Virus record (IMG/VR): IMGVR_UViG_3300017709_000011
Location: 1-35,154 of that record
Length of the DNA stretch: 35,154 nucleotides
Source of the DNA: a virus
Direction: 5' to 3' (one strand)
Of the stretch, positions 27,129 to 35,154 are shown piece by piece; position 1 is the stretch's first letter, and every line of letters starts with the position of its first letter. A program made the position numbers and the translations under genes. The notes under the pieces were generated by a model, which saw only the letters and a list, made by a program, of their open reading frames with translations, ran no database searches and was not told the DNA's origin.

Positions 27129-27541
27129 GACCTAGTAAATACACAACTGACTTAGGCGATGACATTTGCAGACGTTTAGCAGCTGGTGAGAGTGCAAGAC
27201 AAATCTGTAGGGATGATGCTATGCCTGCTATGAGTACGTTGATGAAGTGGCTTACTGATAGTGACAAAGTGACCTTTTCGGAGCAGTACGCGCGCGCAAG
27301 GGATTGTCAGGCTGATTACTACGCAGATCAGATTGTAGATATAGCTGATGAGCTGTCAGAAGCAGCAGAGGCAAGTGAGCTAGCTAGGGCTAAGTTACAG
27401 ATAGATTCACGCAAGTGGAAGGTAGCTAGAATGTCACCACGTAAGTATGGTGATAAGCAGCAGATAGACCATACATCTTCAGACGATACGTTTAAGCCGA
27501 CAGTTATCAAACTGGTAGCGCAGTCTAATGAGTCAGACTGA
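27125..27541 (+). CDS. terS: Terminase small subunit
   Basis: 138 aa. MRPSKYTTDLGDDICRRLAA, GESARQICRDDAMPAMSTLM, KWLTDSDK form the DNA-binding helix-turn-helix; YARARDCQADYYADQIVDIA and the ARAKLQIDSRKWKVARMSPR, KYGDK end are the classic terminase small subunit signature. It recognises the packaging site and regulates the large subunit. The stop overlaps the large-subunit start by 14 bases. Confidence 0.9.
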   Translation: MRPSKYTTDLGDDICRRLAAGESARQICRDDAMPAMSTLMKWLTDSDKVTFSEQYARARDCQADYYADQIVDIADELSEAAEASELARAKLQIDSRKWKVARMSPRKYGDKQQIDHTSSDDTFKPTVIKLVAQSNESD

Positions 27542-28814
27542 TACAGTAGAGATTAATCTCCCACCTAAGATTGTTGATCTGTTTGAGGGTGAAGCCAGAT
27601 ACCGATGTGCCTATGGTGGCCGTGGTTCAGCTAAGACACGATCATTCGCATTGATGACAGCAGTACGTGGTTACCAATGGGGTATGGAAGGAAAGCAGGG
27701 TCAGATACTCTGTGCAAGGGAACACCTTAACTCACTTGATGAATCATCCCTAGAAGAGGTCAAAAGCGCCATTAGAGGCGTTAAATTCCTTTCTGACTAC
27801 TATGAGCTAGGTGAGAAGTACATACGCTCTAAAGACGGTAGAATCAATTACGTGTTTGCTGGTCTCAGACGCAACCTAGACTCAATCAAATCTAAAGCAC
27901 GTATCATCCTATGCTGGGTAGACGAAGCAGAAGGTGTGTCCGATAGTGCATGGCAGAAGCTAATACCAACTGTACGTGAAGACGACTCTGAGATATGGGT
28001 TACGTGGAATCCAGAGACAAAGCACTCAGCAACGCACAGACGGTTCAGGGTGTATCCACCAACTGATATGAAGATCGCTGAGATTAACTGGCGTGACAAT
28101 CCTTTCTTCCCAAAGGTGCTAGAGAATGAGCGCCTAGAAGACAAAAAGAACAGACCAGACCTGTATGACCATATCTGGGAAGGGCAGATGCTCATCCATG
28201 CAGAGGGTGCATACTTTGCTGTAGAGATGCGTGAAGCTACACATAATGAGCGTATTACCAATGTGCCATATGACCGATCTCTTGGCGTTGTAACGGCTTG
28301 GGATTTAGGGGTAGGCGATAGTACCTCTATCTGGTTTGCACAGATGGTAGGGGCTGAGGTGCGCCTTATAGACTACTATGAAAGCAGCGGTGTAGGTCTA
28401 GACCATTACGCTAGGGTATTAGGTGAGAAGGGCTACGTATACGACCAGCACATACTGCCACATGATGTAAGGGTCAGGGAGCTAGGCACTGGTAGATCAC
28501 GCTTAGAGACATTAGATGGTTTGGGGGTGCGACCAGTACATATTGCCCCGCAGCTTAATGTTGATGATAGGATACAAGCTGTCAGGTCATTGATACCACG
28601 CTGCTGGTTTGACAAAGAGAAGTGTGAGCGAGGTGTCGATGCTTTACGTCAATATAGGCGTGAATACGATGAGAAAGGCATGACATGGCGCAGCAGACCA
28701 TTACACGACTGGACAAGCCACTGTGCTGATGCAATGAGGTATCTAGCCATAGGTTACAAGGAGACAACCAACTGGGGTGAACCTATTAGACGAAACCTTC
28801 AGGGAATCGTTTAA
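27528..28814 (+). CDS. terL: Terminase large subunit
   Basis: 428 aa. ATPase: Walker A GGRGSAKT at 30-37, Walker B ILCWVDEAEG with D132/E133, and a coupling motif near VTWNPE. Nuclease: AWDLGVGDST with D259, and HCADAMRY with D401. This is the PBSX/P22-like packaging motor (Terminase_3/6 type) that pumps DNA into the procapsid through the portal and cuts it. The family alone does not fix headful or cos packaging; the circular overlap favours headful or a repeat-ended genome. Confidence 0.94.
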   Translation: MSQTDTVEINLPPKIVDLFEGEARYRCAYGGRGSAKTRSFALMTAVRGYQWGMEGKQGQILCAREHLNSLDESSLEEVKSAIRGVKFLSDYYELGEKYIRSKDGRINYVFAGLRRNLDSIKSKARIILCWVDEAEGVSDSAWQKLIPTVREDDSEIWVTWNPETKHSATHRRFRVYPPTDMKIAEINWRDNPFFPKVLENERLEDKKNRPDLYDHIWEGQMLIHAEGAYFAVEMREATHNERITNVPYDRSLGVVTAWDLGVGDSTSIWFAQMVGAEVRLIDYYESSGVGLDHYARVLGEKGYVYDQHILPHDVRVRELGTGRSRLETLDGLGVRPVHIAPQLNVDDRIQAVRSLIPRCWFDKEKCERGVDALRQYRREYDEKGMTWRSRPLHDWTSHCADAMRYLAIGYKETTNWGEPIRRNLQGIV

Positions 28815-28852: not shown

Positions 28853-31800
28853 ATGAGTCTATTTGGTTTAGGTAAGCGTGGCGAGCAACTAGCAAAAGGG
28901 TTAGTTGATCTGATAGATAAGCCAGTATCTGCCAAAGAATATATCCAGCAAGGCACAAACCCTGATTTCTTGATTAAGCAGGGCTTATTAGCGCCAGAAC
29001 AAATCAACAACATCAGAGCAGTACAAGGCGCACAAAATCGTTACCTAAAGCATTCCATCCAGTCGCCAGAGTTTATGATGCGCGAAATGGGATTCCAAAA
29101 TAACCCTACTGTAACATCTCAAGTGCCGCAGCCACCACGCAACATCATCATGCCAGAAGACCTAGAAGGTATGGTCTTAAAGTCACATCTTGGCGATAGA
29201 ACGGTTACAGATAAAACAATTGAAAGCATAGGTGGCGTTGATCTTCCTGTGCCAGTACAAAGTAGAGGTGGCGTTGGCTATGGCAGCAGCCCATTAACGC
29301 CTGAAGGTAATTACTGGGGTTCTAATCTTGGTGCAGCAACCTCATTGCAAAACGCAGCAGAAGGGCTTGAGGAGATGCTTGATAAGCCAGTAGCAGGCGT
29401 ATATTCTGCTATGGGAAGAGATGGCAACTTCTTCAACCAAGCATTTGCTGATGCGCTGCAGCAACAGGTGGATGCTAAAGACCTGCCGCAAGAAGCTATA
29501 GACCATTTTGATAACTCTATGAGAACATTGCATGGCAAAAAAGACTGGGTAGGGCTGAGACATCCAGATGCACGCAAACAGCTATTAGGCACAGACGGCT
29601 ACCCGCATAAAGGCGCTGGCAACTTGCGTAGTGCGTATGTGATGCAAATGGATAAAGCTGCTTACAAGAATCAAGGTTTCCCTTTATTGCAGCCGTTAAT
29701 GAATGAGCTAATAGAGCCAGAGCTGGCTAATGTAAATGTGGGCGACTCTGGTTTTATTATGGGGCAAATTGGTAAAGACTTTGGATTGTCGCCAAATGCA
29801 AATCATCCATCATACACTACTGGCATAATGGGGAGAGAGATAGGCGGCACACCAGTAAGCCTGCCAAGTAGGATTATGTATCCTGACGCTTACAAGATAT
29901 TAGACCAATCATTAACTAAAGCTGGTGAAAAATACACTGCTGCACAAATGATTAATGCACTCGCGGTCAGGCACGATATGTACCAGATAGCAACGCCAGA
30001 ATGGGTTGACAGGGCATCTGAATGGATAAGAAAAAATCCTAAAGGCACTGCAAATGCGCTGCTGGTAGCAGTAGGTACGCCAATAGCTTTAGGGTCATCA
30101 GAAGAAACTCAAGCAGCAATCATACCTAAGTTATCTCAGGCAACGCAGCGAGGCAATACATTCGCCACAGCCAAATCAGCCAGTGATTACTTAGACAAAA
30201 AAGGAGCTACTGGCAAGTCTATTGATTACGGTGCAGGCTTTGGGTCTAATGCAAAACAGCTAGGCATCATGGATACATTCGAGCCATTTGCCAGAGAAGG
30301 GTTTGACCCAACATTTTCAGCAACAGGCGACATACCTGAAGACACTTACGGCAGGTTAATAAGCACTAACGTATTAAACGTAATACCACCTGAAGCTCGC
30401 GCAGAAGCTGTTAAAAATATTGGCAGCATACTAGAGCCTAATGGCACGGCTGTTATACAGACACGCTCTGCAAGCGCTGTAAACGAGCTGAAGAAATCTA
30501 AGACAGCTATCCCACAGGATGAGCCAGCATCATATCTAACACGCGATGGAACATATCAGAAAGGCTATACGCGCGATGAGCTGCAAGGATACGTGCAAGG
30601 CCTACTAGGCGATAATTTCCAAGTGGAGAAAGTACCAGCAAAGGACATACCTAACGGCTCAGCTATATCAGTTAAGAAACTACGTGGTGTTGCATTGCCT
30701 ACAGCAGTGGCTGCTACAGGTTTACTAGGCGGTCAGGAAGAGGCAGAAGCAGCGCCATCTATGCTCAAGTCAATTGCTCTAAATGCAATGAGTGAAGTTA
30801 CACGTAAAACACCAACATCTTATACAGGCTGGAAGAAAGCCCTTAACAAGGCTGGCGTAAAAGATGATGAGCTAAAGCAAATGGGCTTTAAGCAGGAGTT
30901 TGAGTATCGTCAGCGGTCACAAGATATTACTAGGAAAGAGGTAGAGGACTTCCTAGCAGAGAACCAATACAACATCAGGGAAGAGACACTAGGGCAAAGA
31001 AAAGAGTTTGGTGACGTTACACATGACGAGAACCTCAATGTTTACACAGCACACTTGCCAACAGGATATAGAGAGGAATTTCATACTAAGCAGCAAGCTG
31101 AAGATTTTGTGGCACGCAACCCAACAACAATAAATGATGCACAATACGCACCATATACACTCACAGGCGGTAACAATGTTAACTACCGTGAGATATTGCT
31201 GCTAGATGGCGTTGAGGCAGATAAGTATGAGGGGCTAACAAAGCAGATAACAAAATTAGAGAATGAAATAGCGAAAGGCATAGGCAAGCCAGAGGGCTAT
31301 TTGGCGAGAGATGCGATTGTTGATTTGGATGAGGGCAGCGAATTTTACGAGCCTCATAAGAGACTAACGGAGTTAAGAAAAGAGCGCAATGATTTAGCCC
31401 AGCCATTTATTCATCGGCATTACGATGACAAAGAAAACATACTGACACATCTACGTGTCGCTGACCGTGACCTAGAAGATGGCAGCAGCACCTTGATGGT
31501 TGAAGAGATACAGTCAGACCTGCATCAGCGTGGACAAGAGGTTGGCTATGCTAAGGCGCAAGACCTAAAGGGAGTAGAAGACCAGCTTGAGCAAGTAAAT
31601 CAGGCAATAAGCGGGTTGAAGGCTCGCACTGGCAAGGATATTGATGCAGAGTTTGATAGGTTGCTTGATATGAGGGACAGGCTAAAAGCAAAGCGGCTAT
31701 CTACCATGAAAGCTGTACCTGAGATGCCGTTCAAGTCTAATGACAAGTCTAGCTGGTATGACGTAGCATTTAAGCGCTCATTGATAGAAGCGGCTGAAGG

Positions 31801-32722
31801 CGATTACGACAGCATATCATTTTCTACTGGTAAGCAGCAGGTAAACAGATATGGCGAGTCAGCAGAGGGCGGTGTAAAAACATTCTACGATAAGACGTTG
31901 CCAAATCACATTAACAAGTGGGCAAAACAGTATGGTGTAAAGTTGCAGCGGAAGCCAATCAAGGTTGGAGAATATGAATACAGCGTAGATTCGTATGATG
32001 ACGGAACATATTATGTGCGTAACGATGAAGGCACAACAATAGAAGATTTCGATTCGTATTCCGATGCTTTAGAGTACGTAAGAAATAACACCGATATAGA
32101 TGATGTTTACACGCTAAAGATACCTGAGAAGATGCGTGATGATATACGCAAGAAAGGTATGCCATTATTTGCACAGACAGGATTGACTATTGGGGGTGCA
32201 ACAGCCGCAAGTGGGCTGTTATCGCCAAAAGCGCAAGCCAACGAAGCAAGAACACAGGGTTTGTTGCAGAACATGGCTAGCCGTAGAGACATAGCAGAGC
32301 GCGCAGGTGCAGTGCCTGACCTCACAGCTGGGCTACTTGAGCAGACTGGCAGAGACATTATAAACTTTGGTGCAGGTGTTATAAATCCTGATTACGGTGA
32401 CATTGCAGAAGGCGGGATGTTCCCAGTAACAGAAAAGGGTGAAGCTGCGCTTACAAAAGCTGGCGAAGTATTCATGGATAAGGTAGCGCCCACACTGGTT
32501 AAAGTCGGCAGGGGCTTGCTAGACGATCAGCCTATGTTTGGTGGTACATTGCGCGAGCAGTTAGGCATGGTCAGAGATCAGTACAACAAGCTGCCAGAGG
32601 GCGTTAGGGAAGAGGTTACACCGCGACTAGGTTACGCTGGACTGTTAGCCTTAACATTGTCACCAGCTGCTCAGCCAGTTAAAAAGGCAATTAAAAAGCG
32701 CAAAAAAACTAAACAAGAGTGA
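28853..32722 (+). CDS. Giant polyvalent protein with methyltransferase-like domain
   Basis: 1289 aa, the largest gene. Layout: residues 1-395 a phage-specific domain (RGGVGYGSSPLTPEGNYWGS, GVYSAMGRDGNFFNQAFADA, MHGKKDWVGLRHPDAR-like); a hydrophobic segment with following Ala-rich motif at 398-424; residues ~440-608 a methyltransferase-like domain (SIDYGAGFGSNAKQLG, then LISTNVLNVIPPEARAEAV, KNIGSILEPNGTAVIQTRS); hydrophobic segment 613-635 ending EAEAAP; residues ~640-1108 a 'large polyvalent protein' module (GWKKALNKAGVKDDELKQMG, RKEVEDFLAENQYNIRE, EEIQSDLHQRG, YDSISFSTGKQQ, DDIRKKGMPLFA); hydrophobic segment 1109-1133; then a charged end, KKRKKTKQE. Probably injected with DNA; methylation target unknown. 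The catalytic competence of the SAM site is uncertain. Confidence 0.8.
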   Translation: MSLFGLGKRGEQLAKGLVDLIDKPVSAKEYIQQGTNPDFLIKQGLLAPEQINNIRAVQGAQNRYLKHSIQSPEFMMREMGFQNNPTVTSQVPQPPRNIIMPEDLEGMVLKSHLGDRTVTDKTIESIGGVDLPVPVQSRGGVGYGSSPLTPEGNYWGSNLGAATSLQNAAEGLEEMLDKPVAGVYSAMGRDGNFFNQAFADALQQQVDAKDLPQEAIDHFDNSMRTLHGKKDWVGLRHPDARKQLLGTDGYPHKGAGNLRSAYVMQMDKAAYKNQGFPLLQPLMNELIEPELANVNVGDSGFIMGQIGKDFGLSPNANHPSYTTGIMGREIGGTPVSLPSRIMYPDAYKILDQSLTKAGEKYTAAQMINALAVRHDMYQIATPEWVDRASEWIRKNPKGTANALLVAVGTPIALGSSEETQAAIIPKLSQATQRGNTFATAKSASDYLDKKGATGKSIDYGAGFGSNAKQLGIMDTFEPFAREGFDPTFSATGDIPEDTYGRLISTNVLNVIPPEARAEAVKNIGSILEPNGTAVIQTRSASAVNELKKSKTAIPQDEPASYLTRDGTYQKGYTRDELQGYVQGLLGDNFQVEKVPAKDIPNGSAISVKKLRGVALPTAVAATGLLGGQEEAEAAPSMLKSIALNAMSEVTRKTPTSYTGWKKALNKAGVKDDELKQMGFKQEFEYRQRSQDITRKEVEDFLAENQYNIREETLGQRKEFGDVTHDENLNVYTAHLPTGYREEFHTKQQAEDFVARNPTTINDAQYAPYTLTGGNNVNYREILLLDGVEADKYEGLTKQITKLENEIAKGIGKPEGYLARDAIVDLDEGSEFYEPHKRLTELRKERNDLAQPFIHRHYDDKENILTHLRVADRDLEDGSSTLMVEEIQSDLHQRGQEVGYAKAQDLKGVEDQLEQVNQAISGLKARTGKDIDAEFDRLLDMRDRLKAKRLSTMKAVPEMPFKSNDKSSWYDVAFKRSLIEAAEGDYDSISFSTGKQQVNRYGESAEGGVKTFYDKTLPNHINKWAKQYGVKLQRKPIKVGEYEYSVDSYDDGTYYVRNDEGTTIEDFDSYSDALEYVRNNTDIDDVYTLKIPEKMRDDIRKKGMPLFAQTGLTIGGATAASGLLSPKAQANEARTQGLLQNMASRRDIAERAGAVPDLTAGLLEQTGRDIINFGAGVINPDYGDIAEGGMFPVTEKGEAALTKAGEVFMDKVAPTLVKVGRGLLDDQPMFGGTLREQLGMVRDQYNKLPEGVREEVTPRLGYAGLLALTLSPAAQPVKKAIKKRKKTKQE

Positions 32723-32766: not shown

Positions 32767-33474
32767 ATGGCAATATCTACATATGACACACTGAAGTCTG
32801 GCATTGCAGATTTCTTAAATCGTGATGACCTTACAGGTGTTATACCAACATTCATTGATATGGCACAGGGTCAGATCAACCGCGATGTGCGTCACTGGAA
32901 GATGGAAAAGCAAGTTAACCTAACTTCAGTTAGTGCTGGTGCATATTCGCTGCCAGCTGACTGGCTAGAGACAAAAGATTTGAAGTTTGCGCCAGATTTA
33001 ATTGGGGCTACTAATGATACATACACAGTAGAGTACATTTCACAAAACACTTTTGACGAAAGAAAGCAAAACAGCAATGCACTAACAGGAGACCCAAAAT
33101 ATTACACGCTAGTTGCAAATGCAGGCGTAATGTATGCATACCTTTTTCCAATTACTGAAGTGACCGATGACAATGTAAAAAACTTGTTGATTTTAACTTA
33201 TCTAGCAGAAAACCAGTTAGATGAAAGCAATCAGACAAATTGGCTAATTACAGATGCGTCTGACGTATATTTATATGGCTCGCTAATACACGCTGCTATC
33301 TACCTAAAAGATGACGAAAGACTAGCGTTATTTACCCAGATGTACAATGCAGCAGTACAGAGAGTTAATGCGTCATCTGACGAATCTGAATACAAGCACA
33401 ATAGACTGCGAACTCGTAAGCTAGGCTTAGATACAAGCCGTTCTAAACAACCAAATCATGTACGCTGGAGCTAA
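32767..33474 (+). CDS. Head-tail adaptor, SU10/P22 gp4-like
   Basis: 235 aa. AISTYDTLKSGIADFLNRDD, VIPTFIDMAQGQINRDVRHW, then AYSLPADWLETKDLKF and a C-terminal helical half (DVYLYGSLIHAAIYLKDDER, QMYNAAVQRVNASSDES). The helix-rich start, LP-DW motif and ends fit the adaptor ring protein that sits under the portal. Placement right before the fibre gene fits. No other adaptor is seen. Confidence 0.85.
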   Translation: MAISTYDTLKSGIADFLNRDDLTGVIPTFIDMAQGQINRDVRHWKMEKQVNLTSVSAGAYSLPADWLETKDLKFAPDLIGATNDTYTVEYISQNTFDERKQNSNALTGDPKYYTLVANAGVMYAYLFPITEVTDDNVKNLLILTYLAENQLDESNQTNWLITDASDVYLYGSLIHAAIYLKDDERLALFTQMYNAAVQRVNASSDESEYKHNRLRTRKLGLDTSRSKQPNHVRWS

Positions 33475-33477
33475 AAT

Positions 33478-35154
33478 ATGGCAACTAACACTACACAGTA
33501 TAACTTTCAGAAGCCAGAGGTAGGCGCAGACACAGATGCATGGGGCGATATGCTTAATGCTAACTGGGATTCTACTGACAGTTTACTACGTGGCGCTACA
33601 GCGTTATCAAACATTGGTATTGGCGCAACTAATACAACGATTCCCTTAGTGTGTAATGCAGCGTCAGCAACTGACATCACAGCTACGTTTTCAGGTAAAG
33701 TGGGTATAGGCACTACTAGTCCTACTGAAAAACTACAAGTTAACGGAAACATCAAGATAGGTGATTCCCATATAATAGGAAATGATGCCTTTGATAACTT
33801 AACTCTTATATCATCAAGTCCTGAAGGTATTGTTTACGGGTCTAATACAGACCATATAATTAAAACGGGTTCTACAGGGCTTGATGCTACAGGCACTGAA
33901 CGTATGCGTATTGCCGCGTCAGGTAAAGTAGGTATAGGTACTGATAGTCCACAAGCCCTTTTGCATGTTCAAGATACATTAGGCAGTCCACAAATAAAAA
34001 TTAATAATGAGGGTACTGGAAGCGGCATAGCTAGTTTGATGTTTCATGGTGGTGGGGCTGGTAATCCTACTAGCATTATTCAATCTGGTGGCGCAGATTC
34101 AGGAAATGTAGGGATTATCTTCAAGCATGGTAACAATGGCTCTGAAACTGAACGTATGCGCATAGACTCATCAGGTCGTGTGGGTATAGGTACTACTAGT
34201 CCTTATGTTAAAACTGAAATAATTGGCGGTGACTTGGCTGTAGGTGGCGGGGCAGGAGCTAGTAATTTAGGTTTAGAAATAAAAGGCGTTCCACTTTCAG
34301 CAATACCTTCAGCACAGGTACGTGGCTACATAGCCACAGCAGATAGTGGGATGGGTGTAGCAGGGGATTTGTTGATTGCTCCTAGAACGAGTGTAAACGC
34401 GAGCGTTCGGTTTATTACAGGAACATCTCCTGCAGAACGTATGCGTATTGACTCATCAGGAAACGTAGGTATAGGTACTGCTAGTCCTGACGAAAAACTA
34501 GTTGTTAAAGGCGGCACATATGCGGCAAACCAAAGTGGCGGCATGGCTTTGCAAATGGGGGATGAAGGCGGCAGTCATTGGAAAGCGCGATTTAAAATTA
34601 AAAGCGATGGCTCAGGTGTTCCTAGAACAGTTATAAGCGGTGTTGGTAATAACTCAGGCGGTAGTATTGATGCTATAAACATAAGCAATACAGGAAACGT
34701 AGGGATAGGCAATACTAATCCTCAATCTAAATTGGTCGTACAGGATACCAATGCATGTAAATCAAAAATAGTTGCTACGGATGGCGGTAGTCAGCCTTCT
34801 GCAACTGCACAGTTTACAATGCAAGGGTACGGGGGTAGGGGCGCAGGTATATTTATAGAAGATAGTAAACTATCTACTTCAAACCCCAACGACAGAGCAT
34901 GGTTCATGGGAACAGGTTATAGCACAGCTAACTTTGGGATTGGTTACGCGGCAGACGGTGTTAATAGTCATTATTTAGCGCAGAATATGCTGACGGTTGA
35001 CACATCAGGTAATGTAGGTATAGGTACTAGCTCGCCTAATGATTCGCTACATATAGCCGACGCATTTCCTAAAATACTAATGCAAGATACTGATGGAACT
35101 AATCAGTATGGAGAGTTTTATCATTCAAATGGCACAACAGCTATATCAGCAAGA
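33478..35154 (+). CDS. Tail fibre, N-terminal part (continues at base 1)
   Basis: Open to the end of the window; no stop. Starts MATNTTQYNFQKPEVGADTD, AWGDMLNANWDSTDSLLRG, the usual tail-attachment end of marine podoviral fibres. The rest is a chain of GIGTTSP-type repeats (GKVGIGTTSPTEKL, RMRIAASGKVGIGTDSPQ) that form the stalk. Across the join it continues to 819 with the S74 domain, 819 aa in all. Residues 548-559 here are the duplicated contig overlap. It is near the adaptor, forming the receptor-binding end of the tail. Confidence 0.9.
   Translation, partial: MATNTTQYNFQKPEVGADTDAWGDMLNANWDSTDSLLRGATALSNIGIGATNTTIPLVCNAASATDITATFSGKVGIGTTSPTEKLQVNGNIKIGDSHIIGNDAFDNLTLISSSPEGIVYGSNTDHIIKTGSTGLDATGTERMRIAASGKVGIGTDSPQALLHVQDTLGSPQIKINNEGTGSGIASLMFHGGGAGNPTSIIQSGGADSGNVGIIFKHGNNGSETERMRIDSSGRVGIGTTSPYVKTEIIGGDLAVGGGAGASNLGLEIKGVPLSAIPSAQVRGYIATADSGMGVAGDLLIAPRTSVNASVRFITGTSPAERMRIDSSGNVGIGTASPDEKLVVKGGTYAANQSGGMALQMGDEGGSHWKARFKIKSDGSGVPRTVISGVGNNSGGSIDAINISNTGNVGIGNTNPQSKLVVQDTNACKSKIVATDGGSQPSATAQFTMQGYGGRGAGIFIEDSKLSTSNPNDRAWFMGTGYSTANFGIGYAADGVNSHYLAQNMLTVDTSGNVGIGTSSPNDSLHIADAFPKILMQDTDGTNQYGEFYHSNGTTAISAR
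33691..35037 (+). repeat. Fibre stalk repeats (VGIGTxSP)
   Basis: Six related DNA blocks at about 33691, 33898, 34150, 34435, 34691 and 34996, and a diverged one at 100. The core is GTAGGTATAGGTACT (VGIGT), often with GAACGTATGCG (ERMR) before it. Identical stretches of 15-30 bases between copies could allow recombination. Confidence 0.85.
35119..35154. repeat. Terminal overlap of a circular contig, right copy
   Basis: Same 36 bases as 1-36; see the left copy. It codes for the same fibre residues in the same frame. Confidence 0.95.

Follow-up and report, generated by a model that had tools for sequence, protein, structure and literature searches.

Exchangeable modules of a polyvalent-type phage protein meet at hydrophobic Ala-x-Ala junctions that may be cut

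The 35,154-base stretch analysed here (the window), from an uncultured, probably marine phage, encodes a 1289-aa protein that, by sequence comparison, is a chain of exchangeable modules: an N module, a methyltransferase, a third module and a C-terminal region, joined by three hydrophobic junctions. Relatives exchange modules within a few codons of the sites predicted at these junctions. Because the swaps fall at the Ala-x-Ala site that closes each junction, they suggest that the chain is cut into separate effectors. The full reading, that of a modular, probably virion-carried polyvalent protein cut at Ala-x-Ala, is tentative and falls a little short of an even chance.

Table 1. Features of the 1289-aa protein and its neighbouring genes, with nucleotide positions in the window
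Feature	Residues	Position	Strand	Remarks
Terminase large subunit (TerL), neighbour		27528..28814	+	Terminase_3 3.8e-25
Modular polyvalent-type protein ORF	1289 aa	28853..32722	+	intact; ATG at 28853, stop ends at 32722
N module	42-401	28976..30055	+	profile match, tblastn, BFVD fold matches, high-confidence model
Junction 1	399-421	30047..30115	+	hydrophobic run followed by EETQA; putative cleavage after Ala421 (T-Q-A↓A)
Methyltransferase module	423-609	30119..30679	+	Methyltransf_23 (below cut-off), METTL6 and other class I MTase matches; motif DYGAGFG at 458
Junction 2	611-633	30683..30751	+	hydrophobic run followed by QEEAEA; putative cleavage after Ala633 (A-E-A↓A)
Module III	636-1108	30758..32176	+	weak GNAT-like fold; end is GMPLFA, like stand-alone versions
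Junction 3	1109-1129	32177..32239	+	hydrophobic run followed by SPKAQA; putative cleavage after Ala1129 (A-Q-A↓N)
C-terminal region	1130-1289	32240..32719	+	low-confidence helices, hydrophobic stretch, then basic end
SU10-type adaptor, neighbour		32767..33474	+	SU10_adaptor 4.6e-28

The ORF lies between the TerL gene and the SU10-type adaptor gene (Table 1), and the portal, adaptor, scaffold and capsid genes of the window are all SU10-type. Among the matches listed, the closest portal is that of Octadecabacter Antarctic DB virus 2 (46% identity), which makes an alphaproteobacterial host plausible. An open frame with tail-fibre-like repeats (33478-35154) continues past the right end, and the left end starts with a Peptidase_S74 tail-fibre C-terminus (100-819). 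The two may be halves of a single fibre gene divided by the ends of the record, in which case the genome may be close to complete. Elsewhere, two overlapping genes (1319-1942 and 1884-2717) each start with an ordinary-looking N-terminal signal peptide (VRKAWLGLLLFGVMANAQ.. and MMLKRIIFLLAISTAAQS..), in contrast to the internal junctions of the 1289-aa protein.

Scans of viral contigs, run with the complete protein and with its modules one by one, yielded 157 distinct proteins (given L numbers here), in which the modules are variously combined. The order N-methyltransferase-III is that of the 1289-aa protein, L003, L005 and L012, and the order N-III that of L002, L007, L008 and L010. L009 has N, an ART-like stretch and III; L202 reads N-ART-methyltransferase-LPD23/peptidase-like and L035 ART-ART-methyltransferase-LPD23/peptidase-like. 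The methyltransferase stands ahead of N in L050, L052, L075 and L097, and either of the two also occurs alone. In tblastn searches of annotated phages, only separate parts of the protein were matched, and no isolate in the INPHARED phage set was found to share its full architecture, which is also absent from the N-module phages ctjtQ328 and C72C1 and from the methyltransferase phages CRP-3 and MJing1. The preliminary description had proposed a fusion of formerly separate proteins, and the relatives agree with it: modules occur alone (ctjtQ328, C72C1, MJing1), as adjacent genes (L103) and in other orders.

The N module stands alone in phages ctjtQ328 and C72C1 (tblastn, residues 44-387) and in BFVD proteins of 420-462 aa (fold matches), and N and the methyltransferase are separate adjacent genes in L103. 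The initial N-module alignment was too divergent to serve as a scan query, and the match list of a PDB fold search with the model of residues 1-640 was filled by the methyltransferase part. In GTDB genomes, nothing was found that ties the N module to a prophage or a host.

The methyltransferase-like domain of the preliminary description was confirmed at the level of the predicted model, in which residues 423-609 adopt a class I SAM methyltransferase fold near METTL6 and small-molecule methyltransferases. This Rossmann-type fold scored Z 15.5 against METTL6 (8owx_B; 195 residues, rmsd 4.0) and Z 15.1 against 5ufm_B (175 residues, rmsd 3.0); the Pfam match to Methyltransf_23 is below cut-off. 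Within the glycine-rich SAM motif I, DYGAGFG at 458, D34, G36, G38 and G40 are invariant in a seven-sequence alignment. Residues ∼410-641 are matched in annotated Roseobacter, Microcystis, Mycobacterium and Pelagibacter phages (tblastn), with a stand-alone methyltransferase gene in Microcystis phage MJing1, and methyltransferase relatives at five MAG loci yielded no junction. The module is also part of a large protein, Mycobacterium phage Bigswole gp228 (L018, 6468-10433), whose gene lies directly upstream of the capsid gene in mycobacterial myoviruses, remote from marine podoviruses.

For module III, a GNAT-like identity is a lead offered by the model. Its VIA-align rows were mostly GNATs (Z 7-9.7), obtained with a weak model of residues 600-1289 (pLDDT 59, below 50 from residue 1108 onward), and Foldseek returned no significant PDB match (E above 0.6). 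The identity remains a lead because the acetyl-CoA motif (Q/R)xxGx(G/A) is not conserved, being QEVGYA at 895 here and present in 9 of the 23 family members. Residues 862-993 are matched in a Dolichospermum phage (tblastn, annotated phages). The segment before the third hydrophobic stretch, DDIRKKGMPLFA, had been likened to the C-terminus of stand-alone versions; relatives of the third module in other phages do end in '..PLF' followed by a hydrophobic tail. A fourth hydrophobic stretch (∼1259-1275), near the C-terminus of the protein, lacks an Ala-x-Ala after it.

The three hydrophobic segments lie where they had been placed at first reading, at 398-424 (GTANALLVAVGTPIALGSSEETQAAII), 613-635 (VALPTAVAATGLLGGQEEAEAAP) and 1109-1133 (TGLTIGGATAASGLLSPKAQANEAR), and we set the candidate sites at 421/422, 633/634 and 1129/1130. 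Burial in a globular fold, which would speak against a junction role, is not seen for the first two: the AlphaFold model of residues 1-640 has a mean pLDDT of 83 and falls below 50 only at 1-7, 399-421 and 614-639, leaving both of these junctions unfolded, with the thin alignment there as a caveat. The segments go beyond chance. For this protein, a linker model built from 39 junction windows gives 20.2 bits at 399-424 and 19.2 bits at 611-636, whereas the remaining ORFs of the 35,154-base window reach at most 4.1 bits. Across 1581 non-redundant related ORFs, the model gave 49 matches of at least 10 bits and none in reversed or shuffled sequences; these decoys serve as the control because the model draws on members of that ORF set. 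Junction 3 falls below the threshold and rests on its like layout and on a C-terminal swap in L012.

Where the modules are known, linker-bearing proteins contain between one and four junctions, which lie where modules meet. In an independent scan, all recovered LPD23-metallopeptidase modules of this group were preceded by a junction; the LPD23 module was not used to seed the linker model, and short 'LPD' matches in L239-L250 are other proteins. Of the inter-module segments, 33 of 41 are followed by Ala-x-Ala, compared with 373 of the 1608 hydrophobic segments elsewhere (Fisher 4e-14, a value that treats homologues as independent). In L174 (380-433) and L225 (∼430-483), two junctions lie nearly back to back, resembling a slot emptied by module loss.

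The sequences after the N and methyltransferase modules follow one design: a hydrophobic run of ∼12-19 residues without charges leads into a mostly acidic part, after which come [AVTS]-x-[A/S] and a small residue. Across the 39 windows, position -3 is A, V, T or S and position -1 is A in 37 and S in 2 (both positions being partly fixed by the window register), and A, S or G occupies +1 in 34; Pro never occurs at +1 and occurs nine times at +2. The acidic part can change while small-x-Ala stays, as in L181 (PQQAQA) and L182 (TVVYA), where Glu varies. The uncharged runs (median 15) have the length of a signal-peptide core and are short for a transmembrane helix; long transmembrane helices at the junctions were rejected on that account, and membrane threading, the other option of the preliminary description, appears less likely than cutting.

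At the DNA level, homology breaks at or within a few codons of the candidate sites. At residue 421 it ends with L010 and L141 and begins with L003; at junction 2 it begins at 629 with L002, L007 and L008 and ends at 633-634 with L026 and L027; with L012 it breaks at 1133, and the sequence downstream of junction 3 is swapped in both L012 and L013. Breakpoints on the seam in several pairs are what would be expected if the junction DNA were conserved as a short homology for module swaps and its protein sequence had no role of its own, an explanation we consider quite improbable. Synonymous codons vary at conserved junction residues, and the hydrophobic parts differ in sequence yet keep their character. 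The GAA-GAG bias of the seam is not peculiar to it: in 14 linker-bearing proteins, 53 of 86 Glu-Glu pairs outside the junctions are GAA-GAG, a strong codon-pair bias. The junction data lean towards a constraint on the protein, and a DNA-homology seam as the sole cause was rejected on the codon variation and the general Glu codon-pair bias.

A rival with a better claim, though still unlikely in our view, is an uncut multidomain protein whose junctions are flexible hydrophobic hinges derived from once-separate C-terminal tails, aiding portal or tail threading or touching a membrane, with Ala-x-Ala a matter of composition. Modules that are last in a protein or stand alone do mostly end in a similar hydrophobic stretch with a short polar or acidic tail (methyltransferase in MJing1, GASGLLAEPPEETMR; N in L097, LMLGAASLNTPEGETE; module III, e.g. 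GTPLFSAGAATVAAGAAMNQEQAQQQPQM). Uncut chains are known elsewhere: T7 gp16, with 1318 aa and two putative transmembrane regions, functions as a single chain (PMC8954989), and N4 vRNAP is packaged without processing (PMC5512222). Against this rival stand the persistence of small-x-Ala where Glu varies and the enrichment of Ala-x-Ala at internal junctions over both Ala/Gly-rich segments elsewhere and terminal tails. The latter comparison gave 20 of 28 internal versus 1 of 10 terminal tails (clustered at 60%, p 0.002; small numbers, homologues not independent). In this contrast, the hydrophobic part has the look of a module's former C-terminus and Ala-x-Ala that of an addition made at fusion; it is the strongest argument for cutting, albeit an indirect one. 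Against cutting, the module-III tail of L005 lacks Ala-x-Ala although it lies inside a fusion. As a separate observation, Gly-Leu-Leu occurs at or near the C-termini of L200, L199, L202, L009, L031 and the MJing1 genes in L017 (as QGLLQIAN, QGLLSAN, KGLLTAM or QGLLN) and recurs inside junctions, possibly as a packaging or docking signal.

If the chain is cut after Ala-x-Ala, each module would be freed with its hydrophobic tail as C-terminus, giving predicted fragments of ∼1-421, 422-633, 634-1129 and 1130-1289. The tail would be each module's own C-terminal signal, serving in packaging, in ejection or in contact with a membrane, and the liberated enzymes would be active at an early stage of infection. 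More speculatively, the cutter would be host signal peptidase I (LepB): a chain entering N-terminus first from the periplasm would place the segments N-in/C-out, with the candidate sites on the periplasmic face. Signal peptidase I is pointed to by the -3/-1 pattern, a helix-breaking residue at -6 and the absence of Pro from +1, features that, with the short uncharged hydrophobic run, the junctions have in common with Sec signal peptides. Unlike those, they are internal and repeated, with an acidic c-region, lower hydrophobicity, a weak n-region charge (positive charge before the run is inconsistent) and a cleavage site that is predicted. On a matrix drawn from 26 E. coli signal peptides, the median c-region score of the sites was an intermediate 3.1, between 9.2 for the genuine E. 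coli peptides and -1.1 for segments elsewhere; since the sites score below known signal peptides, we class the junctions only as signal-peptide-like. Signal peptidase I as the cutter is possible, though doubtful, and another phage or host protease is about equally so. The complete scheme, in which internal signal-peptide-like cassettes join effector modules, are resolved one after another by host signal peptidase during inward threading through the cytoplasmic membrane and double as seams for effector swaps, seems unlikely as a whole.

Ala in P1 with Ser, Ala or Gly in P1' also fits assemblin-type proteases, and in T4 the capsid-targeting sequence of internal proteins is removed by the head protease. 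Both points would suit a reading in which a capsid maturation protease, or some other protease of the phage, acts at the junctions instead of a membrane protease. We regard this as improbable: none of the window proteins searched was recognised as a prohead protease, and the hydrophobic run before the site would be superfluous. A T4-type Glu-specific head protease was rejected since small-x-Ala is invariant and Glu is not (L181, L182, junction 3). An embedded zincin, the most familiar route by which polyvalent proteins are processed, was likewise rejected as a general cutter, HExxH being absent from the 1289-aa protein and present in only 7 of 29 linker-bearing proteins.

Among known systems, the protein belongs in kind with the polyvalent proteins. 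Like them (PMC5512222), it joins unrelated enzymatic domains in one chain, with solo versions of the domains, in a portal-terminase phage and beside head genes. The genomic context is that of virion genes: TerL precedes the ORF, the SU10 adaptor follows it, and the window also has SU10 portal and capsid genes. At least two domains of disparate activity share the polypeptide (the class I methyltransferase fold alongside the N module and module III, each of which also occurs apart from the others). No PolyVal or LPD domain passes the Pfam cut-off in the 1289-aa protein; such a domain is common but not obligatory in polyvalent proteins. Relatives that share its N or methyltransferase modules carry ART-PolyVal and LPD23 above Pfam cut-offs, and metallopeptidase-like domains occur among relatives as well. 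Unlike described polyvalent proteins, it is punctuated by a repeated hydrophobic Ala-x-Ala junction and lacks HExxH. Release by embedded zincin peptidases has been proposed for polyvalent proteins (Iyer et al. 2017, PMC5512222), in a paper where a term search found no 'signal peptide', 'transmembrane' or 'linker' and, within those terms, no mention of such punctuation or of its coincidence with module exchange; a limited literature search returned no description of such junctions.

The ejection proteins of T7 and P22 are likewise large chains thought to traverse the tail and contact the cell membrane, and P22 gp20 may require a host cut (PMC8954989). They differ in showing no homology by profile search, and the 1289-aa protein consists of exchangeable enzyme modules and is only probably carried in the virion. 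T4 internal proteins, which carry a capsid-targeting sequence (PMC12373910), resemble the proposed arrangement in bearing a terminal signal on varied anti-defence cargo that travels in the head. In T4 the signal sits at the N-terminus and each protein has one cargo, whereas here each module has a C-terminal tail and several cargos share a chain.

These results bear on how, at which sites and by what protease polyvalent phage proteins might be separated into working units, for which embedded metallopeptidases have been proposed (PMC5512222). Most linker-bearing members lack HExxH yet have a repeated, precisely placed candidate cut site. Such a site gives exact predicted fragment ends for proteomics and a means of locating injected effector modules in metagenomes and setting their boundaries, and the repeated junction design may represent a general C-terminal tail of phage-carried effectors.
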